Positions 26,801-57,187 of a stretch of 64,000 nucleotides of DNA are shown here, piece by piece. Position numbers and translations under genes: made by a program. The DNA comes from Bacteroidaceae bacterium. GTDB taxonomy: Bacteria; Bacteroidota; Bacteroidia; Bacteroidales; Bacteroidaceae. How positions within the stretch are numbered: the stretch's first letter is position 1; each line of letters begins with the position of its first letter. Under the pieces are notes generated by a model. That model did no database searches. It was not told where the DNA came from and saw only the letters and a list, made by a program, of their open reading frames with translations. The DNA lies in NCBI GenBank assembly GCA_017933995.1, contig JAGBKI010000001.1, positions 21,021 to 85,020 of the forward strand, given 5' to 3'.

Positions 26801-27496
26801 AGCAGCATCAGCATCAGTGGCGACGTCGACTACATCACCGACTGGATACGCACCCGTGTGGCCTACCTCGACAAATCCTACGGTTTCAGCGAGGGTACGG
26901 CGTCCTTCAGCGTAGACGCAGCGGGCTATGCCGCCTACTACAACAGCCGTGCGTTCCAAGTACCCGACGGCCTCGTGGCCGGCATCGTCACCGCCGCGAC
27001 TGCCGACAGCCTTTCCATCGACTACCGCTACGGCGCAGGCGAAGTGGTGCCCGCCGGCACCGCCGTCATCCTCTTCGGCGCGGCAGGCAGCTACACCGTG
27101 CGCACCTTCGCCGCCCTCGACGGCGAGACGGCAGCCGAGGGCAACCTGCTGCGCGGCGCCGACAGCCGTGCGCGCACCACCGGCGGCACGTACTATTTCA
27201 AACTTTCGCAGACCGCCGACGACGAGCAGGTGGGCTTCTACTCGCAGACCGCCGCCCACGGTGCCTTCTACGCCCCCGCCCACGAGGCTTACCTCGCCCT
27301 CACCGCCGACGTCAGCACCGACTTCATCCCCCTGAACCTCAGCGTCGAGACCGCCATCAGCGACGTCACCCTCGACACGCTCGGCGCCCTCACCGGCACC
27401 GCTGTCTTCGACCTCCAGGGCCGCCGCGTCGCCCAGCCCCTTCCCGGAGGCGTCTACATCGTCGGCGGGAAGAAAGTAAGGATATCTCTTAAGTGA
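23810..27496 (+). CDS. Large secreted CotH-kinase protein with discoidin-like and C-terminal sorting-like domains
   Basis: This 1228-residue protein starts at ATG 23810 with a signal peptide (MRKTLCALLLLFAFAAGLGA). Residues about 20-185 look like a beta-trefoil (SGTGYTIQSAATGQYLAY, then YDCYTIQNVADNTQWFNV). Residues about 200-365 resemble a discoidin/F5-8 domain (IPALIDNDYSTFHHSDWHG). The CotH kinase region follows from about 575, with FVEMFLNGEYRGLYCFTEKL and AVWDLDGTWGRRWDG near 867, and is interrupted by a Gly/Trp-rich insert near 893-908. The C-terminus (TAVFDLQGRRVAQPLPGGVY) looks like a type IX sorting domain. It is divergent from the beta-helix operon, whose protein has similar Gly/Trp inserts. 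The frame is open upstream of 23810, but that part lacks signal-peptide character. Confidence 0.85.
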   Translation: MRKTLCALLLLFAFAAGLGAQTFQTGTAYYFVSEYFGEGYMGLGSYHGVTPEIYHTESGSFATADDAAWYVEKSGTGYTIQSAATGQYLAYTTTRDGNRIKYLELVDAVTDNNGRWTFAYDSQYDCYTIQNVADNTQWFNVRTDGTNLVGTYNAHYDGGSVNEQFKIYTKDGQSISGNSSTDPVDNTVKTEAESLLAANIWGLQELYGVTDASKIDCHLSDALEGNIPALIDNDYSTFHHSDWHGTTSDAHYMVYELAASTRAIRFYIKQRNSANPGRPLDITVAGSNNGVDFTDVAELTGLTWDGTPLDMYSPLVQGAEAYKYWRFTVYRTNSTSYTTVGDQNHWFCASEWYVMPANTLVDNFFAAAGQLRAATSEADIQAAAEAVSAAAAAVQGEMGNELVKVTYQLWEDGKLINTVETYQPKNSAVAVPAAFTQNATGYFFTTEGTIGEEDCTIVVTRIKGDGELSAYLLGLQFNRKKPVYDEKNSRYLFTLPESLRGGDKTFTALVNFTARQDGISVRINGSSAADGEELTIDDVQGGEAYTLEVLKDGTPVSGVTLVFTYLPIVEVNVASCNSSTYTQGTFHVLDGDLDEDDAVYTAKFKYRGATASHYDKKAYAVKMITADGSKIDRTFLGMRTDNSWILDAMAIDKADMRNRVSTDLWNDFSHAPYHAQFESKPVYTGTHGRFVEMFLNGEYRGLYCFTEKLDRKQLRLEQFDTDALTGEQTVRGTLYKTTSWGYEVFMGHNNDTQSYPRTAPTAYDNYAKQETWCSYEVKYPDYESEPIDWAPLWRAVNVVAAGSDQVFADSFNIYFDRPVVTDYYLFIELMLATDNHGKNMFYYNYDTNPGAKKLAKGYNDQRKLGIAVWDLDGTWGRRWDGTNTWTTQEWNSTGGGGGGGWGGGGWGGWTTVTHGCGAEQDFDDFLWENEHGQLTYFTRLRENTAMGWEAELTNRYKELRRTWFTPESLCARFTDYLALFNESGAAAREESTWTSYHSSISISGDVDYITDWIRTRVAYLDKSYGFSEGTASFSVDAAGYAAYYNSRAFQVPDGLVAGIVTAATADSLSIDYRYGAGEVVPAGTAVILFGAAGSYTVRTFAALDGETAAEGNLLRGADSRARTTGGTYYFKLSQTADDEQVGFYSQTAAHGAFYAPAHEAYLALTADVSTDFIPLNLSVETAISDVTLDTLGALTGTAVFDLQGRRVAQPLPGGVYIVGGKKVRISLK

Positions 27497-27591
27497 AAAA
27501 TTAAAAGTTAAAAGTGAAAAGTGGAGTTTGCGGCTTGCCCCTGCGCACAAACGTAACTACACTTTTCACTATTACTTTTTAACTTTTCACT
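27493..27591. repeat. Paired 7-bp arrays after the CotH stop and before the methyltransferase
   Basis: Heptads gtgaaaa, attaaaa, gttaaaa, gtgaaaa, gtggagt occupy 27493-27527 and contain the CotH stop codon. The complementary heptads ttttcac, tattact, ttttaac, ttttcac occupy 27563-27590. The two arms can pair. The right arm is part of a 32-bp direct repeat found again at 31601-31632, on the other side of the restriction-modification module. Confidence 0.85.
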
Positions 27592-27631
27592 CCAAGAACT
27601 TATCAATAAATAGATTAACTCATTTCTATTT

Positions 27632-28489
27632 ATGACATACCGCAGTAACATCGACTTTTTCCGCAACCGTATATATGAAGACGATTGCTTGAGCGTGATG
27701 CCCCATATTCCTGATGGCGCTGTCGATATGATATTGTGCGACCTGCCCTACGGCACAACGCAAAACAAGTGGGACAGCGTCATCAACTTGGATTCCCTGT
27801 GGAAAGAGTACAAGCGGATCATCAAGCCGAACGGAGCCATCGTGCTCACAGCTCAAGGGCTTTTTACGGCCAAACTCATACTTAGCAACGAAAACTGGTT
27901 CAGGTATAAGATTGTTTGGATTAAGTCCAAATCGACGAACTTCCTCAACGCCAAGAAGCAGCCCTTAAGGAAGCACGAGGATATTTGCGTGTTCTATGCC
28001 AAGCAACCCACTTATCACCCCCAGATGACACAGGGTGAGCGTTATGACAAAGGTGTAAGAAAAGACCAGTTCACGGGCAGTTACGGAGATTTCAGGCCGT
28101 GCCACGTCAAAAGCGACGGACAGCGCTATCCTAACGATGTGGTTTCCTTTGAAGACCACGACGACTTTGTTTATGTGAAGACCGCCGAGGCCGAAGGCAC
28201 CGTCTACCACCCCACGCAAAAGCCCGTGGAACTTGGCCGTTATCTCATACGGACGTTCTCCAATCCGGGCGACATTATCCTTGACAACGCCTGCGGCAGC
28301 GGCAGTTTCCTTGTGGCCGCCGCCTTGGAGAAGCGCGATTTTATCGGTATTGAGAGGAACCGCAACATAGCCTTGCACAAGGTGGGCAAGACTGACTACA
28401 TAAAGGTTGCACACCGACGGATTGAAGAAGCGTTAGGTCAAACCGCCGTCCCGTCCTTGTTTCCCGCCGACGTCCTGGCGTCGGTCTAA
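27632..28489 (+). CDS. DNA adenine-type methyltransferase, beta class
   Basis: This 285-residue protein has motif IV first (DLPYG, about residues 37-41) and motif I late (DNACGSGSF, about 217-225), the order of beta-class amino-methyltransferases. The final HPTQKPVELGRYLIRTFS block is typical of site-specific adenine methylases. DLPYG replaces the usual DPPY. It would methylate N6-adenine (or N4-cytosine) in a specific site and protect against a partner nuclease. The next gene starts 15 bp after its stop and encodes a fused nuclease-methylase. Both are less GC-rich than their neighbours and are bracketed by a direct repeat, which suggests acquisition as a unit. Confidence 0.88.
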   Translation: MTYRSNIDFFRNRIYEDDCLSVMPHIPDGAVDMILCDLPYGTTQNKWDSVINLDSLWKEYKRIIKPNGAIVLTAQGLFTAKLILSNENWFRYKIVWIKSKSTNFLNAKKQPLRKHEDICVFYAKQPTYHPQMTQGERYDKGVRKDQFTGSYGDFRPCHVKSDGQRYPNDVVSFEDHDDFVYVKTAEAEGTVYHPTQKPVELGRYLIRTFSNPGDIILDNACGSGSFLVAAALEKRDFIGIERNRNIALHKVGKTDYIKVAHRRIEEALGQTAVPSLFPADVLASV

Positions 28490-28504
28490 GAGCGTTTTCT
28501 TGTG

Positions 28505-31420
28505 ATGGCAGACGGGTTCAAATACAACGAGCGGGCTTGGGCCGGCCAAATCATCGGCTGGATAAAAGTCGAGATTGAAAACGGCACAACCGTTTTTAAG
28601 GACGTGAACAACGATGCCAGCGTCAAGATGAAATCGGGAAAAACGCTCTTTCCCGACATTCTTCTTTTCACCGACAAAGTGTCCGGCATCATCTTCAACG
28701 GTTGGGAATTGAAGTATCCCGACACGCCTGCCGACGATGAAGCGATGTTGCTCAATGCGCTGGAAAAGGCGCGAAACCTGCAATCACATTCGTTTGTCAC
28801 TTGGAACGGGGCGGAAGCCATCATTTGGGGGATACCCGATGAAAACTACGAGTTGAGTTCCCTCCGTGTTCTCAAGCGATACGCTAAAGACCCCGCCATA
28901 AACAAACGCGAGGACTTGGCACTTAAGCGTAACTATGAGCGGCACGAAAGCGACTTAAGAAGACGTGCTTTAGAAATCCTGCACGACCTGCAATCGCTCT
29001 TTTTAAGCGGCGAACTGAAGCCAGCCGTAAACATCTCCGCCGATGTCGTCCTTGCCGTTAGGCAGGCTGCCGACAGGATAATTCCCCAGTTCACGCTCGC
29101 CATCAAGCAAACTTACGGGGCGGACGTCACGTTCCGCAAGGAATACAAGGAGTGGAAGCGCTACGAGAGCGCCACGCTTAGAATGTTGGAGTCTTCGTCA
29201 CGCCGCCCTGAAGACGTGGACGCAGACGAGGTGCTTGCAAGGTTCGTTTTCTACAACTTAATCGGCAAAATCCTTTTCTATCTTGTGCTTAGTGAGAACC
29301 TTGCAGGCAGGTTGCAGCCTTTCGGAAATGCAGGCAGCGCGCAAGACATCAAGGCATACTTGAACGCTTACTTTGAGCAGGCAAAGTCCATAGACTATCA
29401 GGCCATATTCAAGCCCTACTTTACGGACTGCATTCCATATTCCGATACGGTTTCAATCTGTTTGAGGCAACTCTTGGCACAGTTGGGAAAATATGATTTC
29501 AGCGTGCTGCCTGCGTCTGTAGTGGGGCATATCCTTGAAAACCTCGTACCCGACAGCGAAAAACAGAAGTTCGGCCAGTACTTTACGCCCGAATGTCTGG
29601 CAAACCTTGTGGCTTTCCCCGCCGCCCGGAGAAGCACGGACAATCTTTTTGACCCCACCTCCGGGACGGGTTCGTTCCTCACTTCGTTCTACGACATCCT
29701 GCAATTCTACCACAACACAAGCCATGCCGCACGGCTGAAACAAATTTGGGGCAACGACATTTCGCATTTTCCGGCCATACTTTCCGTAATCAGCCTCTAC
29801 AAACAGAACGCTCGCGACAAGGATAACTTTCCGCGTGTCATCCGTGGCGACTTCTTCAACTTGAATGCCGACAGCACAGAGGTCTTCCCCGACCCTGTTG
29901 ATTCCACAAAAAAGATTGAAGTCCCGATTCCACAGTTTGACGGCATTGCAAGCAATCTTCCGTTTATCCAGCAAGAGGACATCCCGGGTGAGAAACTCTC
30001 CGTGTTAATCCGGCAAGAGTTTAAGGACATCCAGCGCGCATTCCTGAAGGACGGGAACTTCTCCATAAACGAGCGTTCCGACTACTTCACTTATTGCGTT
30101 TACCACGCCACAAAATTCCTCCGCGATGGTGGCGTACTTTCCGTCATAACTTCTAATGCTTGGCTCGGAAAAGCCTATGGCGTCGAGTTCAAGCGTTTTC
30201 TGCTTGACAATTATAATATAAGGTATGTCGTAAGGAGCAATGCCGAGCATTGGTTCACCACTTCGCAAGTTTCGACCATATTCTTTGTGCTGGAGAAAAA
30301 GGCTGAAAGCACCTCCGCGAAGTTCGTAACGCTCAACTTCAAACTGGCCGACTACTTCAACACGACCGACACACAAGCCCGTTTGCAGCAGATAGAAGAC
30401 CTGTACGATGCCATAGACACCTGCGAGAGCGACAATCGGAATTGGCAAGCGAACGGAATGTTCCCCTCTGTCTATAACAAATGCGACGGGAATCTTACCG
30501 TCAGCATAGTTGGTCGGGACGTCTTGGAAGCAAGCCTTACAAGAGGCGAAAACTGGCAGAGTTTTTTCGTCGCGCCCAATGTGCTCGACGGCCTCGGGCG
30601 AGTATTCACCAAGTACAGCCCTAACATCATTGACAGTTTCCGTGGCGAGAGGACGGGATGGGACAAGATGTTTGTTATTCCGCAAACGGCAAAAACACCC
30701 ATCCACCCCGATTACCTGTTGCCTTACATCAAAGGGCCGACCCAACTTTCAAGCATCCTGTTTGACGGAGACTACAAATCGCGCCTGTTTGTTTGCGACA
30801 CTGAGGAGCGGAATCTTGACAAAGGCACGCTTGCCTGGGTCAAGAAGTTTGAGAACCAGCCGAACAAAAACAACTCGCAGACCGTCAGTGAGGCCAACAG
30901 AGGGCACAAGCCCTATTGGTATTCCCTGCGACCGCACGCTGCAAATATCCTCACGCTCATCAATCCGCACAAGCGCCACTTCTTTGCCTATTGCAAGCAA
31001 GACGTGATTTTCGGGCAGCGTCTGACGGGCATCAAGGTGAAAAATCCCGACGAGGCCGAACTCATTGCCGCGCTTCTGAACTGCACGGTGTCCTACCTCG
31101 TTCTCGAAATGAAAGGAACAAGCCGCAACCTGGGTGCGCTTGATTTGAATGCAGACTTCTTTAAGGATATGAATTTCTTCAACCCGGCCTTGTTGTCGCC
31201 GAAACAAAAGGATGAGATTGTCAAAGCGTTCAGGCCCCTGCAAACAAGAAAAGTGTTGAACGTAGACGAAGAAGTTCTGCAAGCGGATAGACGCAACTTG
31301 GATGAAACCATATTCCGCACTTACAACCTGCCTTTAGACCTGCTTGAGGTCTTGCGCGGCGTATTGGTGCAGATGGTTCAGGACAGGGTGTCTTTGGCGC
31401 AAAGAACGCAATCGGACTGA
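28505..31420 (+). CDS. Fused restriction endonuclease-methyltransferase (type IIG-like)
   Basis: This 971-residue protein starts at ATG 28505; a GTG one codon earlier is also possible. The N-terminal part has a PD-(D/E)xK-like signature, FPDILLF (Asp51) then GWELK (Glu68, Lys70). A central N-6 methylase domain has motif I DPTSGTGSF near residue 382 and a motif IV variant, SNLPFIQ near 482, where NPPF or NPPY is usual. The C-terminal 350 residues, with GVEFKRFLLDNYNIRYVV and later helical segments, probably recognise DNA. This layout fits a single-chain enzyme that both cuts and methylates. The preceding separate methylase may modify the opposite strand of an asymmetric site. Confidence 0.8.
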   Translation: MADGFKYNERAWAGQIIGWIKVEIENGTTVFKDVNNDASVKMKSGKTLFPDILLFTDKVSGIIFNGWELKYPDTPADDEAMLLNALEKARNLQSHSFVTWNGAEAIIWGIPDENYELSSLRVLKRYAKDPAINKREDLALKRNYERHESDLRRRALEILHDLQSLFLSGELKPAVNISADVVLAVRQAADRIIPQFTLAIKQTYGADVTFRKEYKEWKRYESATLRMLESSSRRPEDVDADEVLARFVFYNLIGKILFYLVLSENLAGRLQPFGNAGSAQDIKAYLNAYFEQAKSIDYQAIFKPYFTDCIPYSDTVSICLRQLLAQLGKYDFSVLPASVVGHILENLVPDSEKQKFGQYFTPECLANLVAFPAARRSTDNLFDPTSGTGSFLTSFYDILQFYHNTSHAARLKQIWGNDISHFPAILSVISLYKQNARDKDNFPRVIRGDFFNLNADSTEVFPDPVDSTKKIEVPIPQFDGIASNLPFIQQEDIPGEKLSVLIRQEFKDIQRAFLKDGNFSINERSDYFTYCVYHATKFLRDGGVLSVITSNAWLGKAYGVEFKRFLLDNYNIRYVVRSNAEHWFTTSQVSTIFFVLEKKAESTSAKFVTLNFKLADYFNTTDTQARLQQIEDLYDAIDTCESDNRNWQANGMFPSVYNKCDGNLTVSIVGRDVLEASLTRGENWQSFFVAPNVLDGLGRVFTKYSPNIIDSFRGERTGWDKMFVIPQTAKTPIHPDYLLPYIKGPTQLSSILFDGDYKSRLFVCDTEERNLDKGTLAWVKKFENQPNKNNSQTVSEANRGHKPYWYSLRPHAANILTLINPHKRHFFAYCKQDVIFGQRLTGIKVKNPDEAELIAALLNCTVSYLVLEMKGTSRNLGALDLNADFFKDMNFFNPALLSPKQKDEIVKAFRPLQTRKVLNVDEEVLQADRRNLDETIFRTYNLPLDLLEVLRGVLVQMVQDRVSLAQRTQSD

Positions 31421-31553
31421 TACGTACCTTAGAATTATTGAAAGCCTTGTGTTACAGAATGAAATAAACCAGTATTTTTGCTACCCTATTCCCGATTTTT
31501 CCGAAAAAATCGGGAGTATACTCCACAATTTCGGCGTTTTTTGTGCGTCCTCT

Positions 31554-31638
31554 GATTAACTCATTAACTGATTAACTCTTCAACTGGCAAACGGTAACTC
31601 CACTTTTCACTATTACTTTTTAACTATTCACTAAAACA
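31554..31638. repeat. 8-bp then 7-bp arrays directly before the GT4 start
   Basis: Octads gattaact, cattaact, gattaact, cttcaact lie at 31554-31585. They are followed by heptads ttttcac, tattact, ttttaac, tattcac, taaaaca at 31604-31638, which end exactly at the ATG of the glycosyltransferase gene. The preceding 31421-31553 stretch is A/T rich, contains a tcccgattttt/aaaaatcggga hairpin near 31490-31515 and has no gene. Confidence 0.8.
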
Positions 31639-32904
31639 ATGCGCATCCTCCTTTGCAACACCTCCGAGAGCACGGGCGGCGCGGCCATAGCGGCGCGGCG
31701 CCTGATGGTGGCGCTGCGCCGCGCGGGGGAGGACGTGCGGATGGTGGTGCGCGACCGCGCCGCCGACAGTGACGTGGGTGTGCTGACACCTGCCTGCCCG
31801 AAACTCTGCCTGAAGGCCAAGTTCGTGGCCGAGCGCGTGGGCATCCTGCGCGCCAACCGCTGGCGCCGCCACCGCCTCTTCGAGGTGGACAGCGCCACCT
31901 GCGGCACCGACCTCACCCGCCTGCCCGCCTTCCGGCAGGCCGACGTGCTCCACCTCCACTGGGTGAACCAGGGGATGGTTTCGCTGAAAGGCATCGCCGA
32001 GGTGCTACAATCGGGCAAGCCCGTCGTGTGGACCCTCCACGACATGTGGCCGCTCACAGGCATCTGCCACCATGCCCGCGACTGCCGGGGCTGGCTCCAC
32101 GGCTGTGGAAACTGCCCCATACTGTATAAAGGCAGTCCCCGCGACCTCTCCTGCCGCACCTACCAGCGCAAACAGGCCGCCTACGGCACCGCCCCGATGC
32201 ACTTCGTGGCGTGCAGCGACTGGCTGGCCGACATCGCCCGCCGCGCCCCCCTGCTCCGGGGGCACACCGTCCACAGCATACCCAACCCCATCGACACCGC
32301 CTTTTACACGCCCGCAGACCCCGCCGCCGCGCGCCGCGAAGCCGGGCTGCCCGCCGGGGGAGACATCCTGCTCTTCCTCGCCTACAAAGCCACCGACCCC
32401 AACAAAGGCATCGCCTACCTGCGCCAGGCCCTCGAACGCCTCGTGGCCGCGAAGCCCGAAATGCGCCGTGCGCTCCACCTCGTCGTCGTGGGACGCGGGG
32501 GCGCCACCCTGGCCGGCACCTTCGCCGTGCCCGCCACCACCGTCGACTACCTGGCCGACCCCGACGCCGTGCGCCGCCTCTACCGCGCCGCCACACTCCT
32601 GATGACGCCCACCTTGCAGGACAACCTGCCCAACACCATCGTCGAAGCCATGGCCTGCGGCGTGCCCACCGTCGGTTTCCGCGTCGGCGGGCTGCCCCAG
32701 CTCATCGCCCACCGCGAGAACGGCTACCTGGCCGACTATAAGGACGCCGCCGACCTCGCCCGTGGCATCGCCGAGACCCTCCAGCCCGCCGTGCGCCGCC
32801 GCTACGCCGAAGCCTGCCGCCGCCGCGCCGAGCAAAACTTCTCCATGCCCGCCGTAGCCGCATCCTACCAGGCGGTATATCGTCAGGCGGTGAAGCACGT
32901 TTAA
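31639..32904 (+). CDS. GT4 family glycosyltransferase
   Basis: This 421-residue protein has the two-Rossmann-fold layout of family GT4 glycosyltransferases. The N-terminal MRILLCNTSESTGGAAIAA loop is the acceptor-side glycine-rich start. LLMTPTLQDNLPNTIVEAMA near residue 320 is the donor-binding E-x7-E region, followed by GVPTVGFRVGGLPQLI. It transfers a sugar from a nucleotide-sugar onto a glycan, probably at the inner membrane during capsule, LPS or exopolysaccharide assembly. The next gene is a GT2 glycosyltransferase on the same strand 34 bp away. The ATG directly abuts a heptad array. Confidence 0.9.
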   Translation: MRILLCNTSESTGGAAIAARRLMVALRRAGEDVRMVVRDRAADSDVGVLTPACPKLCLKAKFVAERVGILRANRWRRHRLFEVDSATCGTDLTRLPAFRQADVLHLHWVNQGMVSLKGIAEVLQSGKPVVWTLHDMWPLTGICHHARDCRGWLHGCGNCPILYKGSPRDLSCRTYQRKQAAYGTAPMHFVACSDWLADIARRAPLLRGHTVHSIPNPIDTAFYTPADPAAARREAGLPAGGDILLFLAYKATDPNKGIAYLRQALERLVAAKPEMRRALHLVVVGRGGATLAGTFAVPATTVDYLADPDAVRRLYRAATLLMTPTLQDNLPNTIVEAMACGVPTVGFRVGGLPQLIAHRENGYLADYKDAADLARGIAETLQPAVRRRYAEACRRRAEQNFSMPAVAASYQAVYRQAVKHV

Positions 32905-32938
32905 TGTATTAATGCTAATTATATATTGTCTATTCTAA

Positions 32939-33757
32939 ATGGAAGTTTCTTCTACTGACGGCGCGGGTTCTCATCCCCCGCTGAAAATCACCGTCGCCAC
33001 CGTCACCTACAACGCCGCCGCCCTCATCGCCCGCACCATCGAGAGCGTTGAGCGGCAGGACTACCCCCACGTCGAGCACCTCGTCATCGACGGCAACAGC
33101 ACCGACGACACCCTCGCCCAAATCCACCGCTACCAGGAGCGCAACAGCGTCGCCCCCGTCCCGCACGAAGTGGCCTGCCTCAGCGAACCCGACGAAGGGC
33201 TATACGACGCCATGAACAAAGCCCTGCGCGAGGCCACCGGCGACTACATCCTGTTCCTCAACGCGGGCGACACCCTCCACGACGCCCACACCCTTTCTTC
33301 GCTCGCCGCCGTGGCCGAGGCCGCGCCGCAGCCCCCCGCCGTCGTCTATGGCGACACCGACCTCTACGACCTCCGGGGCCGCTTCGTGCGCCACCGCCGC
33401 CTCGCCCCGCCCCCCACGCTCACCTGGAAGAGTTTTCGCCAGGGCATGCTCGTCTGCCACCAGGCGTTCTGCGCCCGCCTCGACCTCGCCCGCCTCACGC
33501 CCTACGACCTCCGCTACCGCTTCAGCGCCGACTTCGACTGGTGCATCCGCATCATGCGCCAGGCTGCACGCCATCGCCTCCCCCTCCTCCCCGCCGGCAC
33601 CGTCGTCGCCCACTACCTCGACGACGAAGGCACCACCAAGAAGAACCACCAAGCCTCCCTCCGCGAACGCTTCCACATCATGGCGCGCCACTACGGCCTC
33701 ATCCCCACCGCCCTGCGCCACCTCTGGTTCGTACTACGCGCCTTCGTGAAAAAGTAA
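32939..33757 (+). CDS. GT2 family glycosyltransferase
   Basis: This 272-residue protein has a GT-A fold of family GT2. KITVATVTYNAAALIARTIE is the nucleotide-binding start, HLVIDGNSTDDT follows, and LFLNAGDTLHD near residue 108 provides the metal-binding acidic motif (N-A-G-D, a common variant of DxD). This subgroup resembles WcaA/WfgS-type enzymes with YRFSADFDWCIRIM near residue 185. It probably adds one sugar to a surface glycan together with the upstream GT4 enzyme. Three heptads (aatgaag, aatgaag, agtgaag) follow its stop codon. Confidence 0.9.
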   Translation: MEVSSTDGAGSHPPLKITVATVTYNAAALIARTIESVERQDYPHVEHLVIDGNSTDDTLAQIHRYQERNSVAPVPHEVACLSEPDEGLYDAMNKALREATGDYILFLNAGDTLHDAHTLSSLAAVAEAAPQPPAVVYGDTDLYDLRGRFVRHRRLAPPPTLTWKSFRQGMLVCHQAFCARLDLARLTPYDLRYRFSADFDWCIRIMRQAARHRLPLLPAGTVVAHYLDDEGTTKKNHQASLRERFHIMARHYGLIPTALRHLWFVLRAFVKK

Positions 33758-34111
33758 ATGAAGAATGAAGAGTGAAGAATTGCTGTCCTCCGCCGTCTGC
33801 CACTGTGGTGGCTCGTCGTCTGCTTCCTTTTGTTGCAGATGTGCTGGTGGGGCATCAACTATTTGCCCCCCGCCCAAGGTATGAGCGTCCACATCTATGC
33901 TTGACAACCCCTTTATGTGTGTGTGAAAAGGGGGTTGCGCTACTGCATACATACGAAAAACCTGCGTTTTTCTTTTCTCTGCGCTCGCCTTGCGCTACTC
34001 TGCTTGCGCCGTGTTAGGCTGCGGCTCGGCAGAGAAAAGAAAAATCGCTGTTTTTCTTTTCTCTGCGCTCGCCTTGCGCTAACTTTGCAGCCAATAAGAG
34101 AAAAAGCGCCA
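33758..34111. repeat. 354-nt spacer with heptads, a hairpin and 32-bp direct repeats
   Basis: Three heptads at 33757-33777 follow the GT2 stop. A hairpin with caacccc/ggggttg-type arms lies at 33905-33937. An identical 32-bp segment occurs at 33966-33997 and 34050-34081. Its first 16 bases also occur inverted at 34029-34044, so several alternative hairpins are possible. No convincing gene is present. Confidence 0.7.
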
Positions 34112-34630
34112 ATGAAGAAGTTATTTGTATGCCTCGCCGCTATGCTGCTCTGCCTCGCTGCGGCCGCGCAGACCGGGGCCAAATACGGCACGCTGAGTTA
34201 CGACGCACTGCTGCGCGAGATGCCCGAATACGGGCTGTTGCAGAGCCGCCTGCAGTCGCTGCGCGCCGCCTACCAGAGCGAGGTGCGCTACAACGAACAA
34301 GTGTTCGAGACCATGTTCGCCGACTATCTGGGCGGGCAGGCCGGTTTCGCCCCCGCCATCCTTGAGAAACGCCAGCGCGACCTGCAGGAAGCGCTCGAAA
34401 AGAGCCTCGCGTTCCGCGCCGAGGCCGACAGCCTGCTGCGCGCCGCTGAGCGCGACATGCTCGCCCCCATCCGCGCGCGCCTCGACAGCGTCGTGGCCGA
34501 GGTGGGTGCCGAGCGCGGCTACGAGTTCATCCTCAACACCGACGCCGCAGCGTTCCCCTACATCCACAGCAGCGTGGCCGAGGACGCCATGCCCTTTGTG
34601 CGCGAAAAACTAAACGCCCGCAAGGAATGA
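34112..34630 (+). CDS. OmpH/Skp-like periplasmic chaperone
   Basis: This 172-residue protein starts at ATG 34112 with a signal peptide (MKKLFVCLAAMLLCLAAAAQ). The mature part begins KYGTLSYDALLREMPEY, the usual start of OmpH/Skp family proteins, and is followed by a long charged helical region (LEKRQRDLQEALEKSLAFRA) predicted to form the coiled-coil tentacles. Skp-like proteins carry unfolded outer-membrane proteins across the periplasm. Its stop overlaps the start of the glutamate racemase gene by four bases. This ompH-murI arrangement is common in Bacteroidales, where murI follows one or two ompH genes. Confidence 0.88.
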   Translation: MKKLFVCLAAMLLCLAAAAQTGAKYGTLSYDALLREMPEYGLLQSRLQSLRAAYQSEVRYNEQVFETMFADYLGGQAGFAPAILEKRQRDLQEALEKSLAFRAEADSLLRAAERDMLAPIRARLDSVVAEVGAERGYEFILNTDAAAFPYIHSSVAEDAMPFVREKLNARKE

Positions 34631-35469
34631 CCCACGCCAGTGACAACGCCGCCGGCAGCATCGGGATTTTCGACTCGGGCTACGGCGGCCTGACCATTCT
34701 CAGGCAGATACGCCAGTACCTCCCCGAGTACGACTACATCTATCTCGGCGACAACGCGCGCGCCCCCTACGGCCCGCGCTCGTTCGAGGTGGTCTATGCC
34801 TACACGCTGCAGGCTGTCGAGGCGCTCTACCGGCGCGGCTGCAACCTGGTCATCCTGGCCTGCAACACGGCCTCGGCCAAGGCGTTGCGCACCATCCAGG
34901 AGAACGACCTGCCCCGATGGGGCGGCGCGAAGCGCGTGCTGGGCGTCATACGCCCCACGGTCGAGGCGCTGGGCGACATCACGCGGACGCGCCACGTCGG
35001 CCTGCTCGCCACGCCCGGCACCGTCGGCTCGCGGTCCTACGAACTGGAGTTGCAGAAACTCTACGGCGACATCCGCCTGACCAGCGTGGCCTGCCCCATG
35101 TGGGTGGCGCTGGTCGAGTACGGCGAGTTCGACAGCCCCGGCGCCGACTATTTCATCCGCAAGCGCATCGAGACCGTGATGCGCAAAGACCCCGAGGTCG
35201 ACACGCTCATCCTGGGCTGCACGCACTTCCCGCTGCTGATGGAGAAAATCACGAAGTACACGCCCCCCGGCGTGCGCCTCGTGCCGCAGGGCGAATACGT
35301 GGCGCGCAGCCTGGCCGCCTACCTGGGCCGCCACGCGCAGATGCGCGCGCGCTGCACCACCGGCGGCACCTGCCGCTTCCTCACCACCGAGAGTGCCGAA
35401 ACCTTCAGGCGTACCGCCAGCATATTCCTGCACAAACAGGTTAAGGAGGTGGAGAAGATTGAGTTGTAA
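34627..35469 (+). CDS. murI: Glutamate racemase
   Basis: This 280-residue enzyme interconverts L- and D-glutamate for peptidoglycan synthesis in the cytoplasm. The diagnostic start IGIFDSGYGGLTI is present. The two catalytic cysteines lie in LACNTASAKA (Cys79) and LGCTHFPLL (Cys198), and the GDNARAPYG loop follows the first strand. Length is normal for the family. The gene overlaps the upstream ompH-like gene by ATGA, which suggests translational coupling. A heptad array begins at its stop codon. Confidence 0.95.
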   Translation: MTHASDNAAGSIGIFDSGYGGLTILRQIRQYLPEYDYIYLGDNARAPYGPRSFEVVYAYTLQAVEALYRRGCNLVILACNTASAKALRTIQENDLPRWGGAKRVLGVIRPTVEALGDITRTRHVGLLATPGTVGSRSYELELQKLYGDIRLTSVACPMWVALVEYGEFDSPGADYFIRKRIETVMRKDPEVDTLILGCTHFPLLMEKITKYTPPGVRLVPQGEYVARSLAAYLGRHAQMRARCTTGGTCRFLTTESAETFRRTASIFLHKQVKEVEKIEL

Positions 35470-35697
35470 AGTAATAAATAATAATTAAAAAGATGAGTTA
35501 CTGCATAGCCCTTGTGTCTAACCACAAAACACCCCTACACACACTAAAGGCTGCGCAGCGGGTGGCTGAAGCCTTTGTGTCCTCTGGCGGGCGAAGCCCT
35601 TTGTGTCCTTAGAGATTTTTTGTGTCTTTCGTGGTTAAAACACCCGCCACCACATTATCCACTTTTACTTTTTACCTTTTAATTTTTAACTAAAAGA
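35470..35697. repeat. Spacer bracketed by complementary 7-bp arrays
   Basis: Heptads agtaata, aataata, attaaaa, agatgag (35470-35497) start right after the murI stop. Heptads ttttact, ttttacc, ttttaat, ttttaac, taaaaga (35663-35697) end exactly at the next ATG. Between them are loosely palindromic sequences with repeated ccttgtgtc/tttgtgtc motifs and a taaccacaaaac/cgtggttaaaac pair. No gene is seen inside. Confidence 0.8.
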
Positions 35698-35949
35698 ATG
35701 AAACATCTCTTTTATATATTTGTAACGCTTCTCGCCGTCGGCCTTGCGTCGTGCGGCGGCGGTAAGACACAGGAAACGTCCGGCGGCGACGACACGCTTC
35801 CCGCCGCCGTCGACGAAGAGACGCAGCGTTTCCTCAGCGAGGAGGGCGACATCGTGCGCGACGGAGACACCACCGACTACAGCCGCGTGCCCGATGACCT
35901 CCCCGACGAGGAAGACATCGAGGCGAACCTCCCGCCGATTGAGGAATGA
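35698..35949 (+). CDS. Small acidic lipoprotein
   Basis: This 83-residue protein has a lipoprotein signal (FVTLLAVGLASCGGG, Cys19) and a short, strongly acidic mature part rich in Asp and Glu (GDDTLPAAVDEETQRFL, then DDLPDEEDIEANLPPIEE). It is probably tethered to a membrane and largely unstructured. I recognise no family. Heptad arrays flank it on both sides, immediately before the ATG and shortly after the stop. Confidence 0.75.
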   Translation: MKHLFYIFVTLLAVGLASCGGGKTQETSGGDDTLPAAVDEETQRFLSEEGDIVRDGDTTDYSRVPDDLPDEEDIEANLPPIEE

Positions 35950-35960
35950 AGTTCCTCTGA

Positions 35961-36162
35961 ATTAAAAAATAAAAATTAAAAAGTAAAAGATGAGTCTGAT
36001 TTCACGCCAGTTGGAGCGCAGGCGTCCCGCCTGCGACCGGCGCAAGACGTAACTTTTTTATTATGGCTTTGCGGGTAGTCGCAGACGAGACGCCTGCGCT
36101 CCAACACGCCGCCACCACATCATCATCTTTTACTTTTTACCTTTTAATTATTAATTTAAATA
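35961..36162. repeat. Spacer with 7-bp arrays and a 27-bp palindromic repeat before frr
   Basis: Heptads attaaaa, aataaaa, attaaaa, agtaaaa, gatgagt lie at 35961-35995. Heptads ttttact, ttttacc, ttttaat, tattaat, ttaaata lie at 36128-36162, two bases before the frr ATG. Inside them, arms 36011-36037 and 36078-36104 are inverted copies with two mismatches, built around gcgcaggcgt. This is a nested hairpin arrangement. Confidence 0.8.
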
Positions 36163-36164
36163 CC

Positions 36165-36725
36165 ATGACAGACGTTAAAGAACTGCTCAATTCCCTTGAC
36201 GAGCGCATGGAAATGAGCGTGATGCACCTTGAGGAGAACCTCTCGCGCATCCGTGCGGGCCGCGCCAACGTGCACATCCTCGATGGCGTGCGCATCGACT
36301 ACTACGGCCAGATGTCGCCCATCAACGTGGCCGCCAGCCTCACCACGCCTGACGCCCGCACCATCGCCATCAAGCCTTTCGACAAGTCCATGTTCAAGGT
36401 CATCGAAAAGGCCATCATCAACAGCGACGTGGGCATCATGCCCGAGAACAACGGCGAAATCATCCGCCTGGGCATCCCGCCCCTCACCGAGGAGCGACGC
36501 CGCCAGCTCACCAAGCAGTGCAACGGCGAGGCTGAGGAGTCCAAGATAGCCATCCGCAACCTGCGCCGCGAGGGTGTCGACAAACTCAAGAAAGCCGTCA
36601 AGGACGGACTGAGCGAAGACCTCGGCAAGGACGGCGAGGCCGAACTCCAGAAACTCCACGACAAGCACATCAAGGCCGTCGACGCACTCCTTGAGAAGAA
36701 AAACAAGGAAATTATGACCGTCTAA
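36165..36725 (+). CDS. frr: Ribosome recycling factor
   Basis: This 186-residue protein releases ribosomes from mRNA after termination, together with EF-G. ATG 36165 gives the standard length. Conserved segments are LSRIRAGRANVHILDGVRI near residue 25, then PFDKSMFKVIEKAI, GEIIRLGIPPLTEERRRQL near 105, and the C-terminal helix EAELQKLHDKHIKAVDALL. It is an essential cytoplasmic protein. The frame extends upstream through a heptad array, but that part is not part of the family. A second type of heptad array (attgacc) follows the stop. Confidence 0.96.
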   Translation: MTDVKELLNSLDERMEMSVMHLEENLSRIRAGRANVHILDGVRIDYYGQMSPINVAASLTTPDARTIAIKPFDKSMFKVIEKAIINSDVGIMPENNGEIIRLGIPPLTEERRRQLTKQCNGEAEESKIAIRNLRREGVDKLKKAVKDGLSEDLGKDGEAELQKLHDKHIKAVDALLEKKNKEIMTV

Positions 36726-36732
36726 CGTTTTG

Positions 36733-36867
36733 ATTGACCATTGATGATTGACCATTGAACATTGACCATTGACCATTGGCTAACGCGACGATACACGTGC
36801 CGGATGGTAATGGCGGGTGGTCAATGTTCAATGGTCAATCATCAACGGTCAATGGTCAATGTTCAAT
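36733..36867. repeat. Paired attgacc/ggtcaat 7-bp arrays
   Basis: Seven heptads of attgacc type run from 36733 to 36781 after the frr stop. Seven of the complementary ggtcaat type run from 36819 to 36867, just before the small membrane protein gene. The 37-nt interior contains gtgccggatggtaatgg. The whole unit is repeated in shortened form at 37057-37153. Confidence 0.9.
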
Positions 36868-36882
36868 CAAAAAACCTCCCCC

Positions 36883-37053
36883 ATGCCCGGCTCCCCGAAG
36901 GACAGGTTCACATACTACTTCTTCTATCTCCTGTTGAAGTTCGCCAAGATAGGGTTTATCGTCCTGGTGAGCTATTTTGTGCTGACGATGCTCCTGGACT
37001 TCCCCGCCTGGATGACCGCGCTGGTCGTGATTGGCATCATTATTCTGATTTGA
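36883..37053 (+). CDS. Small hydrophobic membrane protein
   Basis: This 56-residue protein starts at ATG 36883 (MPGSPKDRFTYYFFYLLLKF). It has two membrane segments, FAKIGFIVLVSYFVLTMLL and MTALVVIGIIILI, joined by a short DFPAW loop. I recognise no named family, though short two-span proteins of this type occur beside rsgA and frr in Bacteroidota. It is placed between two copies of the same heptad-bracketed spacer, which might mean that it moved with that spacer or that the spacer was duplicated around it. Confidence 0.7.
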   Translation: MPGSPKDRFTYYFFYLLLKFAKIGFIVLVSYFVLTMLLDFPAWMTALVVIGIIILI

Positions 37054-37056
37054 ATG

Positions 37057-37153
37057 ATTGACCATTGATGATTGACCATAGACCATTGACCATTGGCTTC
37101 GCGATGAAATGTGCCGGATGGCAATGGCGGGTGGTCAATGGTCAATGTTCAAT
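37057..37153. repeat. Second copy of the attgacc/ggtcaat bracketed spacer
   Basis: Six heptads (attgacc, attgatg, attgacc, atagacc, attgacc, attggct) at 37057-37098 follow the stop of the small gene. Three ggtcaat/gttcaat heptads lie at 37133-37153. The interior gtgccggatggcaatgg matches the interior of the spacer at 36733-36867 with a single change. Confidence 0.88.
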
Positions 37154-37169
37154 CAAAACCTCCCCCCTT

Positions 37170-41044: not shown

Positions 41045-41055
41045 ACCAGAATAGG

Positions 41056-41136
41056 CTGAGTGTTCGGAGTGTTCGGAGTACTCTGAGTACTCTGAGTACT
41101 CCGAATATTCAGAATACTCCGAACGCTCCGCCCACT
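41056..41136. repeat. 9-bp tandem array, nine units, between fucI and aldolase gene
   Basis: Nine units of exactly 9 bp run from ctgagtgtt to ccgcccact, starting 12 bp after the fucI stop. The first half is of the cggagtact type and the second half of its complement (ccgaatatt, cagaatact), so the array can fold on itself. Confidence 0.9.
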
Positions 41137-41778: not shown

Positions 41779-41797
41779 CCCCGCAGAGCGCAGATAA

Positions 41798-41987
41798 AGC
41801 CTACATTTCTCCAAATTAAGCTTACATTTCTCCAAATTAAGGCTAAGTTTGTACAAACTAAGCCTAAGTTTCGCCAAATTAAGCCTTAGTTTGTAGAAAT
41901 TAAGCCTTAATTTGGAGATTGTAAAGCCACGGGACGAGAATACAGAGCCACAAATCGCGAATGGAGAGCCATCGCGCGCGATTTTCG
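41798..41987. repeat. 21-bp tandem array, nine degenerate units
   Basis: Units begin at 41798, 41819, 41840, 41861, 41882 and 41903, each exactly 21 bp. Three more agcc cores at 41925, 41946 and 41967 continue the spacing. Early units are A/T rich (agcctac, tttctcc, aaatta blocks) and the last three are GC rich. The array starts 20 bp after the aldolase stop. Confidence 0.88.
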
Positions 41988-49332: not shown

Positions 49333-49346
49333 TGGGGGGTGTATTT

Positions 49347-49481
49347 CTGAGGTTTCTGAGGTTTCTGAGGGTTCTGAGTGCTCGGAGTTCTCGGAGTTCT
49401 CGGAGTGTTCTGAGTACTCTGATTACTCGGAGTATTCTGAGCCTTCCGACCACTCCGAGCCCTCCGATTATTCCGAAATTC
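49347..49481. repeat. 9-bp tandem array between four-helix gene and hsdR
   Basis: Fifteen units of 9 bp, from ctgaggttt to ccgaaattc, lie between the hsdR start (49332) and the end of the four-helix-bundle gene. The stop codon of that gene (49468) is inside the array. Units at one end are of the cggag type and at the other of the complementary ccga type. Confidence 0.9.
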
Positions 49482-50127: not shown

Positions 50128-50154
50128 GGGGTTTTGGTTTTTGGTTTAACTTTT

Positions 50155-50325
50155 CTGAGTGGTCTGAGTTCTCGGAGTAATCGGAGTGATCTGAGTTCTC
50201 GGAGTTATCGGAGTGGTCTGAGTTCTCGGAGTATTCTGAGCACTCTGATCACTCTGAGCTTTCGGAGTATTCCGAGTCCTCTGAGCACTCTGAGTATTCC
50301 GAGCTCTCCGATTACTCCGATCCTT
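50155..50325. repeat. 9-bp tandem array, nineteen units, between hsdS and the four-helix gene
   Basis: Nineteen exact 9-bp units run from ctgagtggt to ccgatcctt. Units 1-13 are mostly ctgag/cggag types and later ones are increasingly ccga types, so the ends can pair. The hsdS stop (50312) is inside the array, and its last codons are array sequence. Confidence 0.92.
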
Positions 50326-54895: not shown

Positions 54896-54907
54896 GGGCT
54901 TTTTTTC

Positions 54908-55103
54908 GTTAAAAAATAAAAGTTAATAGTGAAAAGTTGAGTTTGGCAAAGCCATCGTTCTTTTTAACCACGAATGGCACGAATTAAAAGAATTGTCACG
55001 AATAAAGATTTGTGTTAATTCGTCTAATTCGTGCCATTCGTGGTTAAAAAGAGCGACGGCTTAGCTATCATCATCTTTTACTTTTTACGTTTTAATTATT
55101 ACT
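54908..55103. repeat. Nested palindromic spacer with 7-bp array arms
   Basis: Heptads gttaaaa, aataaaa, gttaata, gtgaaaa, gttgagt lie at 54908-54942 and complementary heptads ttttact, ttttacg, ttttaat, tattact at 55076-55103. Between them, arms 54961-54986 and 55025-55050 are perfectly complementary over 26 bp and pair with two mismatches over 36 bp (54951-54986 with 55025-55060). The PgpH stop codon lies in the right array. Confidence 0.88.
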
Positions 55104-57187
55104 TAACTTTTCAGTTCCGGGTATGAAATGCGCGTGTGGTAAGTGCGCTTGAGGCTCTCGATGAGGGTGAGTTTGGCCAGTTCGATGTCGAGGAAACTGA
55201 TGGGGCAGCGCTTGAGGCAACCCTCGGCCACGATGGTGTCGACGATGCGCGTGACGAGGGTGGAGATGCTCTCGGCGGTGTAGTCCTTGAGGCTGCGCGA
55301 GGCGGCTTCCACACCGTCGCAAATCATGAGGATGGCCTGCTCCTTGGTCATGGGGTTGGGGCCGGGGTAGGTGAAGGCGGCCTCGTCCACCTGCTCGCCG
55401 GGGTGCTTGTTCACCCACTGCACGTAGAAGTAGCGCACCTTGCCTCGCCCGTGGTGGGTGAGGATGAAGTCGCAGATTTCCTTGGGCAGGTTGTGCTCGC
55501 GGGCTATGCGCAGGCCCTCGGTGACGTGGCTGATGATGATTTTCGCGCTCTGTTTCTCGTCGTCCAGCCGGTCGTGGGGATTGACGCCCGTCTGGTTCTC
55601 GGTGAAGTAGGTGGGGCCCACGGCCATCTTGCCGATGTCGTGGTAGAAGGCCCCGGCGCGCACCAGCTGGACGCGCGCGCCGATTTTCTTGGCCACGTCG
55701 GTGGCGAGGTTGGCCACCGACATGGAGTGGTTGAACGTGCCCTGGGCGTTCTGCGACAGTGCGCTGAGGATGTCGTTGTTGATGTTCATCAGTTCGAGCA
55801 TCGTCATGCTGCTTGAGAAACCGAAGACGCGCTCCAGCAAGTAGAGCAGCGGGTAGCCCATCAGGGTCAGCATCCCGCCGCACGCTATATATATATAATG
55901 CGTGGGGCTGAGTCCGGCGAAGCCTATGCCCTGCGTGAGGTCGAAGACGAGGGCGGCCAGCAGCGTCACGAGGGTGATGACCACCGAGACGCGCAGCAGC
56001 TGGGCGCGCTCGGTGAGTTCGGAGATGGAGAAGACCACGGCGAAGCCCGCCGCCAGTTCGATGCACAGGAACTCGTAGGGGTTGCTGAGGCACAGGGAGG
56101 TGAGCAGCAGTGTGACGAGATAGGTGGCGAAAGCCGTGCGCGAGTCGAAGAACACGCGCAGGAAGACGGCCACCAGTGCGAACGGGATGAGGTAGACGCT
56201 CCCCGCCTTGACGATGAGCAGCAGGTGGGCCAGGAGCGGGAACAGCGTCACGAGCGAGAAGATGAGCAGGATGGCGCTGCGCTGCCTGAGGATGTCGCGG
56301 CGGAAGGTGTAGAGGTAGAGCGTGGCGGCCAGCAGCAGGAGCAGCACGAAGAGGCCCTGGCCCGCTATGAGTTCCCACAGGCCGCGGTCGGCGGTCTCGT
56401 TGCGCTGCGAGAGGTCGCGCTGGAAGGAGTCGAGGATTTTCAGTTTCTGCTCGTCGACGATTTCGCCCCGGTCGATGATTTTCTCGCCTTTCTTGACGAG
56501 GCCGTGTGTCTGCGACACGCCCGCCACCGCCTCGTCGACGGCGGTGTGGGTCTTGGTCTGGTCGAGCGTGATGTTGGGCAGCAGGTAGTCGGGTATGTTG
56601 CAGGCCGCCATCACCTCGCGGCGGAACTGCGCCGTGTCGGTTTTCATCACTTCGTCGTAGGCCGTGCGTATGCTGTAGACCGTGGCGGCCTCGCGGCTCT
56701 CGGCCTCGTTGCCCCGGACGATGCGGATGTGGGTGGGGCTGAACTTGGCCAGGTTCTCGGCGTCGGCCATCGACATCACGCCCGCCTCGTAGAGCCGTGT
56801 CAGGGCGTCGGCAATGTGGGCGGCGTAGCCCGGCGGCACGCCCGCGAACTTCCCGGCGGCGTAGTCGGCGCGGAAGGCCGCCACCTGGCGCGCCGCCACG
56901 GTGCTGTCGAGGGCGAAGTAGGGCTGCACCTGCGCGCTCGCCCCGTCCTGTTCGGCCTTGAGTTCGTCGGCGGTCTTGTAGACGGGGAACTGCTCGGCGG
57001 CGTAGAGCGAGGCGTAGCGCCACGGCTCGCCCAGGGTGTAGAAGTAGCCCACGCTTTCGGCGCGCGGCAGAATTAGGGTGAGTAGCAGTACGCTTAAGAT
57101 AAAAGCACCAGCCAGTGTAGGGACATCTATTTGCTTGCTGACAGTGACATTGTTTTTTTTGCTGTTGTTAGGCAGTGGGTTGCTCAT
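55103..57187 (-). CDS. PgpH-like 7TM HD-domain cyclic-di-AMP phosphodiesterase
   Basis: This 694-residue protein matches the 7TMR-HD family. One membrane segment (LAGAFILSVLLLTLILP) near residue 25 is followed by an extracytoplasmic region to about 290, then seven membrane segments to about 480. The cytoplasmic HD domain has TFNHSMSVANLATDVAKKI and AGAFYHDIGKM near residue 515, then ISHVTEGLRIAREHNLPKEI with further metal ligands. PgpH-type enzymes degrade cyclic di-AMP. The last codons (LKS-stop) lie in a heptad array. The gene begins the long minus-strand run and is divergent from the permease gene. Confidence 0.9.
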   Translation of the reverse strand: MSNPLPNNSKKNNVTVSKQIDVPTLAGAFILSVLLLTLILPRAESVGYFYTLGEPWRYASLYAAEQFPVYKTADELKAEQDGASAQVQPYFALDSTVAARQVAAFRADYAAGKFAGVPPGYAAHIADALTRLYEAGVMSMADAENLAKFSPTHIRIVRGNEAESREAATVYSIRTAYDEVMKTDTAQFRREVMAACNIPDYLLPNITLDQTKTHTAVDEAVAGVSQTHGLVKKGEKIIDRGEIVDEQKLKILDSFQRDLSQRNETADRGLWELIAGQGLFVLLLLLAATLYLYTFRRDILRQRSAILLIFSLVTLFPLLAHLLLIVKAGSVYLIPFALVAVFLRVFFDSRTAFATYLVTLLLTSLCLSNPYEFLCIELAAGFAVVFSISELTERAQLLRVSVVITLVTLLAALVFDLTQGIGFAGLSPTHYIYIACGGMLTLMGYPLLYLLERVFGFSSSMTMLELMNINNDILSALSQNAQGTFNHSMSVANLATDVAKKIGARVQLVRAGAFYHDIGKMAVGPTYFTENQTGVNPHDRLDDEKQSAKIIISHVTEGLRIAREHNLPKEICDFILTHHGRGKVRYFYVQWVNKHPGEQVDEAAFTYPGPNPMTKEQAILMICDGVEAASRSLKDYTAESISTLVTRIVDTIVAEGCLKRCPISFLDIELAKLTLIESLKRTYHTRISYPELKS

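Follow-up and report, generated by a model that had tools for sequence, protein, structure and literature searches.

Heptamers repeated in short tandem in intergenic DNA are familiar from cyanobacteria as short tandemly repeated repetitive (STRR) sequences, and the arrays analyzed here are like them in this respect; we know of no case in which STRR heptamers form inverted arms that bracket a spacer. Our arrays lie mainly between genes of a Bacteroidaceae bacterium (GenBank assembly GCA_017933995.1) and were noticed in a stretch of 64,000 nucleotides (contig JAGBKI010000001.1, positions 21,021 to 85,020; hereafter the window), whose preliminary description, made from the letters alone, reported heptads after stop codons, their complements before start codons, and no described counterpart in Bacteroidota. 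We read the arrays, with a probability of about 0.62, as dispersed non-autonomous palindromic repeats with slippage-prone tandem arms, similar to miniature inverted-repeat transposable elements (MITEs) or Rickettsia palindromic elements (RPE), which have spread and have been filtered by selection on translation.

The claim that no counterpart is known in Bacteroidota has to be narrowed, because TAACTGA heptamer repeats, reported from Beggiatoaceae, Cyanobacteria and five Bacteroidetes, are a partial one (MacGregor 2015, PMC4679880). According to the excerpted text of that paper, 12 of the 14 TAACTGA sets of F. litoralis lie upstream of a start codon (1-43 nt), one set is reversed directly after a stop codon, and stop codons were noted in the forward orientation. 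The likeness consists of heptads that adjoin starts and, once, are reversed after a stop. The same excerpts (PMC4679880) describe one unit and neither an inverted partner arm nor an interior core, whereas the genome analyzed here has many units and periods. The heptads that we read by eye are GTKAAAA, ATTGAMC, ATTAGGA and AATAAAC, not TAACTGA, and the nearest unit, TTAACTGA of family F, has a period of 8.

Three kinds of palindromic repeats resemble our elements in other traits. RPE are outlined in the excerpts of PMC10969869 as palindromes of about 150 bp, of several families, which occur in frame in unrelated conserved genes; our arms, by contrast, are tandem arrays of 7-10 bp units, located mostly at operon junctions in a Bacteroidales host, and the likeness is one of description. 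BrickBuilt, a MITE of Porphyromonas gingivalis, also has a Bacteroidales host and a minisatellite inside an inverted-repeat element; in the excerpted account (PMC4596501), an array of 23-bp units lies between a leader and a tail, with small inverted ends, and is always intergenic, whereas in our case the arrays themselves are the inverted arms, the units are 7-10 bp long and intragenic copies exist, so that the elements are not of the BrickBuilt kind. Repetitive extragenic palindromic (REP) sequences and REP doublets forming hairpins (REPIN), which go with REP-associated tyrosine transposases (RAYTs), are likewise dispersed palindromes, and CGTC-type REPs are also found without an identified transposase (PMC3733652). 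They are 20-40 bp long and marked by a GTAG or CGTC tag; the excerpts of that paper make no mention of tandem-unit arms, and the Y1_Tnp transposase genes of our genome are flanked by other repeats. Each of the four systems thus shares a part with our elements, and none of them, as far as the excerpted sources go, has tandem-unit inverted arms of several periods; nor did searches of open-access full texts list any description of such palindromes.

Dispersed families and intragenic copies

The genome sample comprised about 750 kb (the window and loci L004-L041) of the 2.48-Mb, 66-contig assembly. Genes were called with a simple hexamer model and not taken from a curated annotation, which gave 418 spacers of at least 30 bp, and arrays were recognized by a threshold of 16 matches out of 21 at a given lag, with the expectation taken from local shuffles. 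Heptad arrays had been expected in other spacers of the genome as well, and this was borne out by 55 lag-7 segments in 36 of the 418 spacers vs 0.6 in the shuffles (about 90-fold); by the same numbers, chance or low complexity was rejected as their source. The excess extended to lag 8 (34 segments vs 0.4), lag 9 (47 vs 0.6) and lag 10 (17 vs 0.2), and was highest, among lags 4-30, at lag 21 (67 vs 0); lag 11 gave 2 segments vs 0.8, and lags 5, 13 and 17 gave none. Arrays of different period share one layout, with a left arm after the stop codon and a complementary right arm before the start codon. By eye, we defined families of period 7 (A, GTTAAAA/GTGAAAA; B, ATTGACC; C, ATTAGGA; D, AATAAAC), period 8 (F, TTAACTGA; F2, GGTTTTTA), period 9 (E, GGTTTAAGA; H, GAGTACTCG) and period 10 (G, GGGAGTTAAG). 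A search for k-mers enriched in the spacers returned mainly promoter boxes and other repeats.

The sequence common to array spacers extends beyond their arms. Pairwise comparison of these spacers gave 904 hits, the top 30 of which span 78.7-97.9% identity over 46-211 bp, some of them coming from other repeats nested there; examples are 86.5% over 193 bp, 88.6% over 105 bp and the two family B elements of the window (Table 1). A CCGRAYGG core was present in 19 of the 95 array spacers and in 10 of the 323 others. As in MITEs, the elements are shorter than 500 bp and have terminal inverted repeats and many dispersed copies, with one-armed copies and mosaics of two families among them (e.g., L010:16979-17169 and L018:1306-1499). 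Unit numbers varied among the copies (ten pairs were aligned), which is what slippage would give.

Copies were also found inside genes: the coding sample contained 21 lag-7 segments, 17 of which were separated by more than 60 nt from either gene end. As reported for RPE, a complete palindrome, in this case arms and interior of family C, lies in frame in unrelated conserved genes, namely those for PurL (L035:9207-13028) and cardiolipin synthase (L029:16371-18008), and the two copies share 82% identity over 113 bp. The cardiolipin synthase has 78 residues between two aligned blocks that are 11 residues apart in a homolog. For PurL, 13 of 14 solved sequences (variants of one protein by name and length) align only to residue 1094, where the array starts; the fourteenth aligns on to residue 1268, with a printed alignment that ends before the array, so that the gap itself was not seen. 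Other intragenic copies are single-armed arrays of family B. Of the 17 segments, six have the unit GGTCAAT: three lie in frame in a RecB/UvrD-like helicase (L013:5516-8857), where they give the peptide NGQWSMV and variants, one lies in frame in a TrmN-like methyltransferase, one in a GH20 protein and one in a protein whose only match, to a lipase, is sub-threshold. The array of the methyltransferase coincides with a gap in the homolog and the first helicase array with a gap of 20 residues; the other two arrays of the helicase fall where the alignment is poor and are not evident insertions. The six GGTCAAT arrays all have the orientation that is poor in stops, a fact that we considered and dropped as evidence of selection, as it is largely forced by the definition of an open reading frame.

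A separate TTTATTG heptad array near the N-terminus of a Big_5-domain protein (L021:7783-9879) encodes SIVYCLLSIVYC, apparently in a lipoprotein signal peptide.

Orthologous junctions and preferred positions

To compare the array junctions with those of same-genus loci, pairs were de-duplicated, since one relative had stood under several locus names in a first count of 36 pairs. In the resulting 31 orthologous junction-genome pairs (26 array junctions), the median spacer was 133 bp in our genome and 39 bp in the relatives, and no relative passed the array threshold. The 90 pairs at 76 non-array junctions had 23 bp and 26 bp, respectively, and four relatives with an array. Because starts called by the hexamer model can be wrong, which shifts some spacer lengths in this comparison (our own gene after frr was called at 36859 and rather begins at about 36883), we repeated the search with flanks added to the relatives' spacers (30 bp upstream and 150 bp downstream). 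None of the 26 checkable array pairs passed, two of them reaching 15/21, and 5 of the 60 non-array pairs did. At the junction after frr, where the window has at least 133 bp of family B, L042 and L043 have 1 bp and 6 bp (by eye). Empty orthologous sites, as known for MITEs, were accordingly found, at the species level only.

The relatives also differed in period. G004 had mainly lag 9 (15 segments in 400 kb), G012 lag 8 (11 in 114 kb), G019 lags 7 (5) and 22 (21) in 371 kb, and G013 lags 21 (17), 22 (10) and 8 (4) in 185 kb; at lags 7-10, in 200 kb each, G008 had no segment and G015 had one (lag 7). A pattern search across the order found GTKAAAA arrays in at most 76 of 393 genomes, some of the matches (AAAATTTAAAATTT) being of low complexity, and CATTGAM in 11 of 393. 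In the reversed-pattern control, reversed GTKAAAA describes nearly the same array, and the reversed CATTGAM heptad was also found in 11 of 393 genomes; being as frequent as the real one, it indicates that recurrence of a unit in distant families is not to be read as shared descent.

Tandem repeats of 22 bp, several of them palindromic (e.g., AGGAAGGTGCACTTCCTAAGGT), were noted in L134 (G019), L164 (G012) and L177, L179 and L183 (G013), and one 22-bp repeat of a related species occupies the junction orthologous to the period-8 array L008:9669-9799 of our genome.

Of the 303 co-directional spacers, 84 had arrays of periods 7-10, compared with 5 of the 60 divergent and 6 of the 55 convergent ones (Fisher test, co-directional vs the rest, 4e-5); arrays of periods 8-10 were present in 60, 3 and 2 spacers of these orientations, respectively (3e-5). 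The motif TAnnTTTG, which we take to be the consensus of the Bacteroidota-type -7 box, occurred in 8 of 80 array spacers vs 73 of 159 non-array spacers among co-directional spacers of at least 75 bp (P = 8e-9). The array block started within 10 nt of the stop codon in 45 of 84 spacers, more than in any of 1000 sliding null sets (mean 30.9, maximum 42). In 18 of 59 post-stop arrays, the periodicity reached back into the called upstream gene by more than 3 nt, which means that an array can include the stop codon.

On the sense strand, the arms are polarized by the gene boundary, in agreement with the preliminary description: post-stop arrays had G>C in 43 of 60 cases and pre-start arrays C>G in 61 of 68 (Fisher test, 5e-15), the remaining pre-start arrays being four with G>C and three with equal numbers. 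The polarity was also present in spacers with one array (post-stop G>C, 17/23; pre-start C>G, 26/26), and is therefore not just a by-product of two inverted arms. Before starts, G amounted to 6% with arrays vs 14% without; since low G is a general trait of leaders in this genome, the pre-start side is in line with a general constraint. After stops, the arrays were not rich in G compared with the background (22.5% vs 22.2%) but were poor in C (12% vs 31%), and all three sense frames were stopped within 30 nt in 23 of 39 post-stop arrays, vs 9 of 39 on the antisense strand (periods 7, 8 and 10).

Arrays of the window

The preliminary description listed 14 intervals with a strict 7-bp period. All of them hold the arrays described, if loosely, but the period is not strict: the lag-7 identity was 0.50-0.93, and some arms scored alike at lag 8 (at 27563, 0.62 vs 0.60; at 31604, 0.50 vs 0.52). 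By permutation, lag 7 was significant (P < 0.05) in 13 of the 14 intervals, the exception being 31604-31638 (P = 0.06). Eleven segments of the window had at least 16/21 lag-7 matches vs 0.3 expected, one of which, at 50120, was outside the listed intervals, and the arms at 27563, 31604, 33757 and 35470 fell below this threshold. Heptads had also been said to end exactly at the ATG at 31639 and 35698, which did not hold, as a few unrelated bases were seen by eye between array and start at both places.

The 14 intervals fall in eight spacers. Six are two-armed (27497-27631, 35470-35697, 35950-36164, 36726-36858 with an arm to about 36870, 37054-37169 and 54896-55102) and two are one-armed (31421-31638, with the right arm only beside a period-8 array, and 33758-34111, with the left arm only). 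The genes around them encode a DNA methylase, an Eco57I-like methylase, two glycosyltransferases, an OmpH-like protein, an Asp/Glu racemase (murI), the product of a small open reading frame (ORF), frr, that of a second small ORF, and rsgA. The features are collected in Table 1.

Table 1. Tandem-array features of the window (positions in the window; folds are predictions)
Feature	Position	Strand	Remarks
Left arm, family A (GTTAAAA/GTGAAAA heptads)	27491..27527	+	Overlaps upstream stop; lag-7 identity 0.75; array starts 7 nt before called gene end
Right arm, family A	27563..27590	+	Complementary to 27491-27527; fold of 27491-27600 = -36.5 kcal/mol, arms paired
Period-8 array, family F (TTAACTCA/TTAACTGA units)	31555..31586	+	Adjoins one-armed heptad
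Right arm only, family A	31604..31631	+	Ends few nt before glycosyltransferase start; lag-7 P = 0.06
Left arm only (AATGAAG heptads)	33757..33780	+	At stop codon; lag-7 identity 0.93
Left arm, family A, after murI	35470..35497	+	Weak, lag-7 P = 0.04; only partly paired in fold
Right arm, family A, before small ORF 35698-35949	35661..35692	+	Lag-7 identity 0.68
Left arm, family A (ATTAAAA)	35958..35993	+	Whole-spacer fold -89.8 kcal/mol, including nested REP-like palindrome
Right arm, family A, before frr	36127..36157	+	Lag-7 array
Left arm, family B (ATTGACC), after frr	36733..36785	+	Lag-7 array
G+C-rich interior	36786..36816	+	Common to 37100-37124; CCGGAYGG part also in dispersed copies
Right arm, family B	36817..36870	+	Fold of 36726-36877 = -76.5 kcal/mol
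Left arm, family B	37057..37099	+	Lag-7 array
Right arm, family B, before rsgA	37125..37153	+	Spacer 85.6% identical over 111 bp to 36726 element
Arm, family A, minus-strand operon spacer	54908..54942	-	Lag-7 array
Partner arm, family A	55076..55105	-	Fold of 54896-55102 = -81.8 kcal/mol, much from nested palindrome

Some further features of the window were noted. The genes for the DNA methylase and the Eco57I-like methylase form a pair (27632-31420) between heptad-bearing spacers. Within the heptad arms of 54896-55102 and 35950-36164, nested palindromes were found (AACCACGAATGGCACGAATTA...TAATTCGTGCCATTCGTGGTT and TTGGAGCGCAGGCGTC...GACGCCTGCGCTCCAA), the latter of which is REP-like and has similar sequences in spacers of G012 and G019. 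Long arrays of a self-complementary 9-bp unit (GAGTACTCG/GAGTATTCC) fill co-directional spacers at 41048-41130, 49338-49467 and 50153-50303, and related units recur at other junctions in G004 and G019. Tandem units of 21 bp (AAGCCTAAATTTCTCCAAATT) lie at 41797-41913; arrays of lag 21 occur in all gene orientations. A Y1_Tnp gene, which resembles those of REP-associated tyrosine transposases, is located at 61331-61786, and its flanking palindromes (CCTTTCAGGGC and GGCCTGAAAGGCC) are unrelated to the heptad arrays. No Rfam match at the gathering score was obtained in the window, and a known structured RNA was rejected as an explanation on this ground.

Explanations for the arrays

Several families are dispersed in one genome. 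At nearly all orthologous junctions that could be compared, the relatives lack these copies, and the preferred period differs between related species; most copies are located at operon-type junctions without a promoter, and some in frame in conserved genes. The array elements are recent, lineage-specific gains, and resemble small genomic parasites that spread as a family more than they do a regulatory code. Such an element, of about 100-200 bp, would consist of an inner G+C-rich part between two inverted arms made of tandem units of 7, 8, 9 or 10 bp. Copies would spread via a transposase or a copying process, their arms may lengthen, shrink and become partly homogenized by slippage and hairpin-templated copying, and selection would retain only those insertions that are tolerated by translation. 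The copies at junctions have an almost G-free arm before the start and, after the stop, an arm that often brings new stops, and their mRNA tends to form a hairpin from stop to start; intragenic copies can remain only where one frame stays open. More tentatively, the elements could represent an undescribed class of mobile palindromes with 'soft' ends, namely the slippage-prone tandem arms, in which each species would reinvent unit and period (7, 8, 9 or 10 bp) and the arms would be under selection for doing no harm to translation. Periods coprime to three would give stops in all frames after the gene, together with a G-poor leader and a stop-to-start hairpin, by which this class might colonize operons and essential enzymes.

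Several observations weigh against reading the arrays as spreading repeats. No common element end was seen by eye, and a target-site duplication or fixed ends escape definition, because the arms merge into the flanking gene ends. No mobilizing enzyme was found in the genome, in which only the Y1_Tnp transposase family was searched. The five Y1_Tnp matches carry other palindromes, and none of the arrays described here, in 500-600 bp of each flank, and mobilization by a RAYT in the manner of REP/REPIN was rejected, because a RAYT flanked by the same palindrome was not among these five. The same family was present on both sides in 35 spacers, vs 95 array-bearing spacers counted, and many array spacers are one-armed, mosaic, decayed or of families left undefined. 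The scarcity of periods 8-10 in convergent spacers (2/55, both of unusual sequence) is unlike a pure parasite. The orientation bias was not significant for period 7 alone (29/303 co-directional, 3/60 divergent and 4/55 convergent; P = 0.33) or in the relatives G004, G012, G013 and G019, and the trend in G013 was reversed (3 of 75 co-directional vs 3 of 18; P = 0.08). Finally, the frr junction of L044 (about 4314-4395, about 82 bp) holds a near-threshold period-8 array (CCAAGAACCTAAGAACGTACAAACG, 15/21) where the window has family B, so that species can differ in the array that a given junction acquires, and some junctions may be recurrent sites.

The foremost alternative, which we consider rather unlikely, is that the arrays are selected intercistronic hairpins that tune or couple translation or protect the operon mRNA, while their sequence and period turn over freely. 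Overall, the arms were complementary beyond shuffled controls, as the preliminary description had proposed. Among co-directional spacers of 75-300 bp, with 20 dinucleotide shuffles each, at least 10 pairs between the stop side and the start side were predicted in 43 of 72 array spacers vs 25 of 111 non-array spacers, and the mean number of end-to-end pairs was 13.0 vs 4.3 in the shuffles for array spacers and 4.9 vs 4.5 for non-array spacers. In predicted single-strand folds of the window, five of the two-armed spacers have arms that are paired for the greater part of their length; in 35470-35697, which folds no better than its shuffles (z -0.7), pairing is only partial. That the arrays cluster at co-directional junctions without a promoter, and that those of periods 8-10 are rare in convergent spacers, would also suit selected hairpins, as would the period-8 array of L044 and four array junctions (5 pairs) at which the relative's spacer is at least 75 bp as well, two of these junctions having other visible hairpin repeats. 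However, 26 of the 31 orthologous spacers measured less than 75 bp (at least one of them, the L044 spacer at frr, being really about 82 bp) and have little room for such a hairpin, and hence most of these operons work without it. The exterior path length of folded array spacers did not differ from that of shuffles (median, 21 in both), better folding than in shuffles was predicted for non-array spacers as well (z < -2 in 57 of 72 array and 60 of 111 non-array spacers), and the same elements are found inside genes.

We regard as unlikely a local origin, in which replication slippage and hairpin-templated copying would create the arms in each spacer without movement between loci. The preliminary description had suggested that each spacer builds its own arms, for which the support is weak. 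In a permutation of arms within families A, C, E and F (B and F2, with two spacers each, were left out), the arms paired better with their own partner than at random in family A (16 spacers, 2/5000) and weakly so in F (four spacers, 210/5000), but not clearly in C (four spacers, 432/5000) and not in E (seven spacers, 2969/5000), and mosaic spacers exist. The variation of unit numbers between copies and of periods between species is consistent with a local origin as well. Against it, interiors are common to unlinked loci, including those of two unrelated proteins, and left and right arms mostly match through membership in the same dispersed family.

It is very unlikely that the arrays act as bidirectional transcription terminators or attenuators. 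Family A hairpins have an A-rich 5' arm and a U-rich 3' arm, and one convergent pair has a long hairpin (L041:3581-3696), but the lack of enrichment in convergent spacers speaks against such a role, families E, F, G and H have no terminal U-run by eye, and the junctions join genes that are adjacent in the relatives as well.

Least likely of all is that the arrays bind proteins or ribosomes at starts, a role proposed for TAACTGA heptamers: although in 68 of 84 spacers the last array ends within the final third (median, 7 nt before the start), G is very low before starts and TTAACTGA of family F is almost the TAACTGA heptamer, arrays also lie after stops and inside genes, many unrelated units occupy the same place, and the block ended within 10 nt of the start in 39 of 84 spacers, which did not exceed the sliding null (mean 30.8, maximum 42).

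Insertions of 100-200 bp are usually considered to be poorly tolerated in tight operon junctions. In the sampled genome, about a quarter of the co-directional spacers carry arrays, and the same repeats lie in frame in PurL and other core enzymes. This makes it testable how operon expression survives the accumulation of palindromes, how arms of short period originate and are replaced between sister species, and by what agent they are copied. Heptad arrays next to start codons, which have elsewhere been proposed to be regulatory, may be the footprints of mobile repeats filtered by selection on translation.

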